A DNA stretch of 64,000 bases, taken from NCBI GenBank assembly GCA_913058145.1, contig CAJXQM010000002.1, forward strand, positions 124,001-188,000, given 5' to 3'. Of the stretch, positions 18,055 to 19,992 are shown piece after piece. Position 1 is the first letter of the stretch; the number at the start of each line of letters is the position of its first letter. The position numbers were made by a program, and so were the translations under genes. Below the pieces are notes generated by a model. It was not told where the DNA came from and made no database searches. It saw only the letters and a list, made by a program, of their open reading frames with translations. This DNA comes from an uncultured Colwellia sp. (GTDB lineage Bacteria; Pseudomonadota; Gammaproteobacteria; Enterobacterales; Alteromonadaceae).

Positions 18055-19182
18055 TTAATAAAAAGATCTAAAAGATAAACCTGTCTCCATTACAGGGAAA
18101 ATTCGCTCTAACGTTTCTAATGGTAAAGGCTCACCATCAGCATTATAAATACTAACTGATGTTTGTTGATCCTTATCATCAAGTGGAGCAAGCACAAATT
18201 GATATTTAGCATCATTGACTTCAATAACCGGCCCTTCATCCCCCCAAATAGTATCCCAAATACTTGTTTCAGGTTTAATAAAGGCTACATAATAAGTTTT
18301 ATTACTTTCGTTTAAATCATTAATAGTAAAACCGTGTTTTTCGAAGAAAATAGGCATGTTGTCCCAAAGGTTATTCAATCCCATTTCGACAACATAAGCT
18401 GGCTCTGCCTCACTATTTTCACCTAAAACGACCAATTTCTGATTAGCCCGCATTAAACGGTTTTCACGTTGTTGTAAACGATAATTATAATCGACTTGAG
18501 CAACAACCTCATTAAGCATTAGCATTTCAGCACGCTGTTTATCAATAGGATCTATCGTCTTACTACCGCCGTCATTATCGGTTTTAATATAATCGATTAA
18601 TGAAACTTTTAATGATACGCTTCGCCCATGAGGCTTAAGGAAAAACTCATAACGAAAACGTATACTTGTCGATGATTCAATATCAGTAAATAACCAGCCC
18701 GTTACTATCTCACTATGATACCAATCAGATTCATAAATTTCAGTTTTACTCTGTTTTTTACTTCCTGGTTCATCTTGAGATGATGAATCGACAACCTCAT
18801 AACTAACATCATCAGACTTTAATTGGCTAACAAGTGCATTTTGAATAAAAACCAATAAATCTTTATTTTCAATTGTTTTATCAAACCAAATAATGGCTTC
18901 ATGAGTGCCAGCAATAACACGAGAAGATGCCGCAATTGGCAAAACTAAAGATGGTGCTCTTATATCTACTTTCTCACCAAGAGAGCCTTGATAATTTATT
19001 TTTTTCGTTATTAAAAATTCTTTTTGTGTTGCTGGTTTGTCTAAATTTTTAGGAACAATAAACGCTTTAGATTCATGCTTTTTTGCATAATCAAAATTTC
19101 CCTGTGCACGTTTACTATCAACACTACTACATGCTGACAGCGTCAAACTAAGCACAGAAAAATAAAACAATTGACGACTCAT
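18055..19182 (-). CDS. bamC: Outer membrane assembly lipoprotein BamC
   Basis: Lipoprotein of the BAM complex that folds beta-barrel proteins into the outer membrane. The 375 residues start MSRQLFYFSVLSLTLSACSS, a good lipobox (LSAC, Cys18). After it comes an unstructured segment typical of BamC, then two helix-grip domains (about 90-220 and 250-375) with PAYVVEMGLNNLWDNMPIF and a conserved C-terminal FPVMETGLSFRSFY. In E. coli bamC follows dapA in one operon; here no dapA precedes it and the gene faces the gcvR remnant, so it must use its own promoter in 19183-19371. Confidence 0.92.
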   Translation of the reverse strand: MSRQLFYFSVLSLTLSACSSVDSKRAQGNFDYAKKHESKAFIVPKNLDKPATQKEFLITKKINYQGSLGEKVDIRAPSLVLPIAASSRVIAGTHEAIIWFDKTIENKDLLVFIQNALVSQLKSDDVSYEVVDSSSQDEPGSKKQSKTEIYESDWYHSEIVTGWLFTDIESSTSIRFRYEFFLKPHGRSVSLKVSLIDYIKTDNDGGSKTIDPIDKQRAEMLMLNEVVAQVDYNYRLQQRENRLMRANQKLVVLGENSEAEPAYVVEMGLNNLWDNMPIFFEKHGFTINDLNESNKTYYVAFIKPETSIWDTIWGDEGPVIEVNDAKYQFVLAPLDDKDQQTSVSIYNADGEPLPLETLERIFPVMETGLSFRSFY

Positions 19183-19371: not shown

Positions 19372-19494
19372 ATGTCTCAATATTTAGTCCTAACCGCCAT
19401 GGGATCCGATACAACAAGTTGTGTTAGTTAATTAACTAAATTAGCAAGTGAATGTGGCTACATTAGAGAAAGCTCACATAAAAATAATTACTGA
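19372..19494 (+). pseudogene. gcvR: gcvR remnant (glycine cleavage repressor)
   Basis: Reading from ATG 19372 gives MSQYLVLTAMGSD, closely matching the start of GcvR (E. coli: SQHYLVITALGAD), then an in-frame TAA at 19429-19431. The same frame continues as LTKLASECGYIRESS, matching the next GcvR segment (VSSCGCNIEDS), and stops again at 19492. The roughly 130 following residues, both ACT domains, are gone and bcp starts at 19516. In E. coli gcvR lies directly before bcp, so position and sequence both support a decayed gcvR. Nothing functional can be made from it. Confidence 0.8.
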
Positions 19495-19515: not shown

Positions 19516-19992
19516 ATGAATACCCTAACCGTCGGTGATAAAGCACCATTATTTACCCTAAATGATGAAAATGAACATGCCGTAGCTTTAGCTGATTTTA
19601 TTGGCAAAAAACAGGTATTAGTTTACTTTTACCCAAAAGCGATGACACCAGGTTGTACAGTACAAGCACAAGGTCTTCGTGATAGCCAAAGTCAATTAAA
19701 TGAGTTAAACACAGTGGTTTTTGGTATTTCTCCTGACGAACCTAAGCGTTTAGCAAAATTTTGTCAGCGTGATGAATTGAACTTCACCTTGTTGTCTGAT
19801 GTAGATCATAAGGTTGCTGATGATTTTGGTGTTTGGGGCTTGAAGAAGTTTATGGGTAAGGAATACGATGGTATTCACCGCTTAAGCTTTTTAATTGGTT
19901 TAGATGGACAAATAAGCCATGTTTTTAATAAATTCAAAACTAAAGAACATCATCAAGTAGTACTTGATATGTTAAATGAATTAGCTAAATAA
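19516..19992 (+). CDS. bcp: Thioredoxin-dependent peroxiredoxin Bcp (PrxQ)
   Basis: 158-residue peroxiredoxin reducing H2O2 and organic peroxides in the cytosol. KAMTPGCTVQAQGLRD holds the peroxidatic Cys47, the catalytic Thr44 and Pro45, and the matching Arg is in the GIHRLSF segment. Position 52, which in E. coli Bcp is the resolving Cys five residues on, is Gln here. The only other Cys is Cys83 in KFCQRDE, where some PrxQ proteins keep their resolving Cys. It is therefore probably still a 2-Cys enzyme of the alpha-3 type. AAGGAAA ribosome site before the ATG; lies just after the gcvR remnant. Confidence 0.94.
   Translation: MNTLTVGDKAPLFTLNDENEHAVALADFIGKKQVLVYFYPKAMTPGCTVQAQGLRDSQSQLNELNTVVFGISPDEPKRLAKFCQRDELNFTLLSDVDHKVADDFGVWGLKKFMGKEYDGIHRLSFLIGLDGQISHVFNKFKTKEHHQVVLDMLNELAK

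Follow-up and report, generated by a model that had tools for sequence, protein, structure and literature searches.

Decay of gcvR in place in an uncultured Colwellia and the repeated loss of gcvR together with gcvA in the genus

In the genome of an uncultured Colwellia sp. (GCA_913058145.1) gcvR is present only as a remnant of a gene that very probably decayed at its original site, either once its partner gene gcvA had been lost or along with that loss. The remnant lies in a stretch of 64,000 nucleotides of contig CAJXQM010000002.1 (positions 124,001 to 188,000, forward strand), which is referred to as the window and to which all coordinates without a prefix apply. The genome, G000 in the following, is 3.0 Mb in size, in 68 contigs and 97% complete. 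It carries stubs of three genes, those of gcvR, of gcvA and of a putative small RNA gene beside lolE. In the genus the two protein genes are lost together on at least five branches, and a palindrome is kept at two loci, one of them gcvA and the other the RNA gene.

PMC1557403 describes for E. coli that GcvA activates gcvB in the presence of glycine, that GcvA with GcvR represses in the absence of glycine, and that GcvR represses via a complex with the activator GcvA. Since GcvR of E. coli acts through GcvA, gcvR can decay neutrally once GcvA is gone. Applied to Colwellia, the loss of GcvA would leave GcvR without a known target, and the decay of gcvR would be neutral.

The gcvR remnant before bcp

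The remnant was read against the gene of G017, which among the genomes with gcvR matches the surrounding DNA best. The features are:

18055 to 19182, minus strand: bamC, intact, divergent from the gcvR remnant (open reading frame list; same neighbour in relatives)
19372 to 19494, plus strand: gcvR pseudogene as a whole (frame reading, whole-genome match, NCBIfam, DNA alignment to G017)
19372 to 19457, plus strand: retained 5' block of gcvR, codons 1-29 (of the first 88 bases, 77 identical to G017)
19429 to 19431, plus strand: nonsense codon TAA at codon 20, GAA in G017 (alignment to G017)
19458 to 19461, plus strand: deletion junction, at which 4 bases replace 412 of the G017 gene (net 408, in frame)
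19462 to 19481, plus strand: degraded 3' tail of gcvR (IRESSH versus IRKNTHN in G017)
19516 to 19992, plus strand: bcp, intact, the next gene downstream of the remnant (open reading frame list; relatives)

The frame between bamC and bcp translates as MSQYLVLTAMGSDTTSCVS, a stop, LTKLASECGYIRESSHKNNY and a second stop. When the whole genome was searched with one intact Colwellia GcvR, this frame was the single match (86% identity over residues 1-29, one internal TAA, E = 1.0e-8), and an intact gcvR was not found in G000. With the stop written as X, the remnant has one NCBIfam match at E <= 0.01, which is GcvR (NF008612, E = 8.3e-5; model positions 7-39, 22 bits, far under the whole-protein cut-off), and one Pfam match, ACT_6 (E = 0.0033, under the curated cut-off). 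The remnant lies at the syntenic site upstream of bcp: the slot between bamC and bcp holds an intact gcvR in the nearest named relatives, Colwellia sp. 39_35_sub15_T18 (L002) and Colwellia maritima (L003). These results bear out the first-pass annotation, made from the sequence of the window, in which gcvR was proposed to have decayed in place, and the frame can be aligned base by base with the intact G017 gene. A 167-amino-acid ACT protein (G000:C16) was considered as a substitute GcvR and rejected. Its best NCBIfam match is NF001220, below the cut-off, and the GcvR model gives just 22 bits, so that it is read as a paralogue.

Because of the stop at codon 20 and the net deletion of 408 bases, the frame no longer encodes two complete ACT domains. 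The piece is a pseudogene and not a working member of the GcvR family. It had been described as the first 35 residues of GcvR with everything thereafter deleted. This is correct for codons 1-29, but the letters IRES fit the C-terminal tail better than residues 31-35. In the alignment to G017 the deletion is internal, and the letters 3' of the junction match the tail of gcvR (IRESSHK) and then the leader of bcp.

Other genomes of the genus differ at this site. G021 carries its own, different and frameshifted gcvR stub. In G014, G018, G020, and G027 no frame resembling GcvR was seen in front of bcp. Relatives with unrelated sequence in place of gcvR had been named beforehand as evidence against decay; such relatives are found in these four genomes, but all of them are on other branches. 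In G018 (L185, near 5281), DNA on the bamC side shares 92.6% identity with the window over 190 aligned bases. There is no gcvR, however, and the bcp copy is divergent in sequence (61% identity), which suggests that gcvR-bcp was replaced there.

Absence of dapA from the neighbourhood

As the first-pass annotation had noted, there is no dapA between bamC and the remnant. This is, however, ordinary for the lineage and unrelated to the decay of gcvR, because relatives with gcvR also lack dapA there. It is absent between bamC and gcvR in all ten loci L002-L011 (titled Colwellia, Thalassotalea, Thalassomonas, and in one case Endozoicomonas) and in all 17 Pseudoalteromonas loci, and each of these loci has gcvR. 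The proposed comparison with Colwellia and Thalassotalea thus gave gcvR in the named relatives, but dapA in none of the loci. The idea that one or two deletions took away dapA and most of gcvR has to be given up also for the reason that the gcvR deletion sits inside gcvR. Among 80 bcp loci of named genomes (tblastn, E <= 1e-4; L036 is truncated upstream) dapA is present in 49 and gcvR in 56. That dapA must lie elsewhere in the genome was predicted correctly: two proteins of G000 score above the TIGR00674 cut-off for DapA, and the gene of one is followed by dapD. The second (L082:1480-2388) is encoded between a cinA-like and an mreB-like open reading frame. Locus L009, titled Endozoicomonas sp. 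G2_1, is of the Colwellia/Thalassotalea type (bamC-gcvR-bcp, 82% bcp identity), and the record is possibly misnamed.

The gcvA stub

In relatives the order at the gcvA site is kdsA, a small minus-strand open reading frame, gcvA, a hydrolase gene, a DUF423-like open reading frame, and rlmM, with gene names assigned partly by eye. Between kdsA and the hydrolase gene of G000 there is only a match to GcvA residues 281-310 (tblastn, E = 8.6e-6), which is also backed by a DNA alignment with G017. A search of G000 with the GcvA model NF008352 yielded no full-length orthologue; the best match has E = 1.6e-56, compared with <= 1.4e-119 in the 30 genus genomes with gcvA. The whole-genome check for gcvA proposed at the outset therefore ends at a C-terminal stub at the ancestral site. 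In G018 this site retains GcvA residues 254-309 in two frames. There is no GcvA match in G014, G020, and G021, in which kdsA adjoins the hydrolase gene, nor in G027, in which kdsA, the hydrolase gene and rlmM are present.

The gap between kdsA and gcvA in relatives (L136:4658-5053 and its equivalents) contains a divergent open reading frame of about 100 amino acids with a start that by eye resembles a signal peptide, and a long conserved stretch precedes it. The G017 copy has no Pfam or NCBIfam match. In the five genomes without gcvA that were checked, this frame was not found at the site.

Co-loss in the genus

The genus sample consists of 37 genomes (G000 and 36 others). Matches to gcvR without stops were obtained in 31 of them and gcvA in 30 (GcvA model, >= 399 bits), G009 being counted with gcvA though the frame is broken, as is its kdsA. 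The same six genomes lack each gene, namely G000, G014, G018, G020, G021, and G027 (Fisher p = 3.0e-6). The seventh gcvA absence is that of G003, which concerns gcvA only and where the contig ends inside the neighbouring kdsA.

In a seven-gene tree the losses fall on at least five branches, provided that lost genes do not return. In the tree the labels 'ubiX' and 'prmC' stand as placeholders for two syntenic open reading frames. G018 and G026 are sisters, and so are G027 and G017, both pairs with 100% support, and neither gene is missing in G026 or G017. The losers G014 and G020 are sisters of each other. G021 is weakly placed (1057 of 2954 sites, support 68), and G000 joins G018 and G026 in the protein tree and G017 and G027 in the DNA tree, with at least five losses either way. 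In single-contig genomes the distance between gcvR and gcvA is about 745 kb (G011) and 368 kb (G032), which is why one deletion cannot explain the paired losses.

A match to GcvP was found in all genomes of the genus except G021 (94% complete), and glycine cleavage itself may therefore have been lost there.

The palindrome and the glycine cleavage operon

Within 330 bases before gcvA the palindrome CATTAG-N5-CTAATG is present in 25 of the 28 genus genomes in which the gcvA start is covered; in G019, G030, and G032 it is not exact. It is presumed to be the GcvA site. Outside the genus, G047 has it no more than 25 bases ahead of the GcvA frame, and G041 has it 128 bases ahead of gcvT (L234:4084-4100). 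In Colwellia not even the loose form TTAG-N5-CTAA was found before gcvT (0 of 35 genus genomes with gcvT covered), and there was none in G050. Its presence in the outgroup G041 suggests that the ancestors of Colwellia may have had this box before gcvT and then lost it. A promoter-like block before gcvT is kept, also in the three losers that were aligned. CTAAT/ATTAG words before gcvT were considered as GcvA sites in the genus and rejected, since they are scattered and none are paired. It should be noted that in Shewanella, according to PMC3223726, the predicted control of gcvTHP by GcvA relies on a motif that differs from the E. coli one, so that a GcvA site of another type before gcvT of Colwellia is possible.

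A glycine riboswitch, which would be the expected substitute as an alternative control of gcv, was likewise rejected: RF00504 had no match in the 37 genus genomes (strict filters), and in ten gcv or gcvA stretches no Rfam family reached its threshold.

The exact palindrome was found in 33 of 39 genus genomes, which are all 30 with gcvA, G296, G297 (in the palindrome survey only and outside the gcvA and gcvR counts) and the loser G027. It is absent genome-wide in G000, G003, G014, G018, G020, and G021. The palindrome cannot be used as a pure marker of lolE and gcvA. G027 has one exact copy away from both genes, and in G032 (L283:4371) and G031 (L284:4385) the same palindrome stands close before an open reading frame that by eye is nqrA-like.

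A putative small RNA gene beside lolE

In 16 of 20 chosen regions around palindrome hits not belonging to gcvA the same non-coding segment borders the palindrome, with lolE visible in 15. Reading from the box towards lolE, the segment ends in a GC-rich hairpin and a T-run. It looks like a small RNA gene, so far not annotated, which is about 180 nt long and has a terminator of its own and a promoter-like spacing after the box, and the RNA, if made, would depend on GcvA. A model built from the 16 segments finds a seventeenth in G034, which was outside model building, with 207.5 bits. At the RNA loci Rfam has no family at threshold; the scores of GcvB (RF00022) at three single loci are 22.7, 18.5, and 15.7 bits versus a gathering score of 42, and GcvB has the best E-value in one of the three. 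Of 19 predicted pairs only 1 shows a change on both sides, and z is -2.08 (one sequence); a conserved structure is thus weakly supported except for the terminator hairpin, which is clear. Among open-licence PubMed Central papers, none linking GcvB with Colwellia was found.

In G000 the gene appears as a stub (L293:15437-15563) that matches only model positions 65-182 (73.7 bits, E = 1e-10). The terminator pairs are broken, and the box, the promoter and the 5' third are gone. The 3' half is well conserved, and some residual use is therefore possible. About 2.8 kb with two other open reading frames lie between the stub and ybgC (L293:12631-15437), one of 168 amino acids, LuxR-like by eye, and one of 575 amino acids; this arrangement was not seen in G011, G006, G015, G022, and G018. 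The loser G018 has the RNA in full length (L343:17995-18201, minus strand, 131.4 bits), and the core box ATTAG-N5-CTAAT and the promoter-like region are kept. Of the two losers in which the RNA was looked at, its loss is thus shown for G000 and refuted for G018.

What the losses mean

The first-pass annotation saw in the decay of gcvR a release of the glycine cleavage genes from GcvR control. If gcvR alone had been lost, the gcv operon would be activated constitutively by GcvA, as GcvA targets are in E. coli without GcvR: PMC1557403 reports that a gcvB fusion is constitutive in a gcvR mutant, and gcvT, gcvH, and gcvP are open in G000. This explanation is nevertheless highly unlikely, for no gcvA orthologue was found in G000 and the stub of gcvA lies at the ancestral site. 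The release itself is probably wrong, both because of this stub and because of the lack of TTAG-N5-CTAA before gcvT in 35 of 35 genomes. It is almost certain, too, that the short frame in front of bcp no longer has a use, such as that of a leader peptide for this gene. The start codon with an upstream AGG is kept and the first codons are well conserved, but the stop at codon 20 and the loss of both ACT domains speak against use, as do the different, frameshifted stub of G021 and the four losers without any GcvR-like frame at this place.

General genome reduction, in which gcvA, gcvR and the RNA would have been lost independently as dispensable and without a functional tie, is a further rival. 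Loser genomes are smaller than those of keepers (Mann-Whitney p = 0.013), so that reduction may contribute, and LysR candidates are few in G000 (12) and G021 (13). Against this, G013 with 3.3 Mb and 14 LysR candidates keeps both genes, and the losers G014, G018, and G020 have 4.0-4.3 Mb. Moreover, it is the same six genomes that lack both genes, and random length-weighted draws of five loss branches reproduced the observed loss set in 0 of 200,000 cases. As a full explanation, reduction without a functional tie is therefore unlikely.

For the preferred explanation, decay of gcvR after or together with the loss of gcvA, GcvR would have to act only through GcvA in Colwellia as well. The third stub of G000, that of the RNA gene whose promoter in relatives has the palindrome as does that of gcvA and of which the 3' part is left, would then mark a further step, and the protein regulators would have gone first and the RNA thereafter. 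A wider proposal, which we put forward tentatively, is that in Colwellia the small RNA beside lolE, rather than the glycine cleavage operon, may be the main conserved output of GcvA/GcvR, along with gcvA and perhaps the divergently encoded small exported protein. The circuit would be a dispensable module that is dismantled repeatedly and stepwise, regulators first and RNA last, with G018 midway and G000 at the end.

The GcvA/GcvR pair of E. coli and Yersinia is matched by that of the Colwellia relatives in that their GcvA is above the NF008352 cut-off, the palindrome is found before gcvA, and their GcvR matches NF008612 (E = 8.7e-41, 139 bits, cut-off 267). In contrast to that pair, both genes are stubs in G000, and before gcvT the palindrome is lacking in the genus, although not in the outgroup G041. 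The putative RNA resembles GcvB in its wiring: the gene is intergenic, about 180 nt long and ends in a terminator, and a presumed GcvA box precedes its promoter. It differs in that it lies beside lolE instead of divergent from gcvA and in that its Rfam score is below gathering.

Enteric genetics had already revealed the tie of GcvR to GcvA. Here two unlinked genes were lost together at least five times in parallel, which is natural evidence that GcvR is of little use without GcvA. The analysis also brings up a candidate small RNA gene, below the Rfam threshold and preceded by a presumed GcvA box, and a genus in which this box is lacking before gcvTHP. What the core output of GcvA is can thus be tested in sister species of which one has the circuit and the other does not.

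The wider family

In 246 genomes of the family gcvR was found in 193 (E <= 1e-30) and gcvA in 234 (E <= 1e-90), the line for gcvR having been set after a gap between 1.3e-32 and 4.8e-14 was seen. Of the 12 genomes without gcvA, 9 are also without gcvR, and three of these nine are genus genomes; one of the nine, G267, is only 59% complete. The other three, G175, G177, and G244 (97, 78, and 88% complete), have kept gcvR without gcvA. The opposite, gcvA without gcvR, applies to 44 of 234 genomes. In the family GcvA is thus often retained without GcvR and GcvR rarely without GcvA (Fisher p = 7.2e-5, uncorrected for relatedness). In clades with small genomes (genera g35, g51, and g53) gcvA is kept and gcvR is mostly missing, which is the reverse of the Colwellia pattern.
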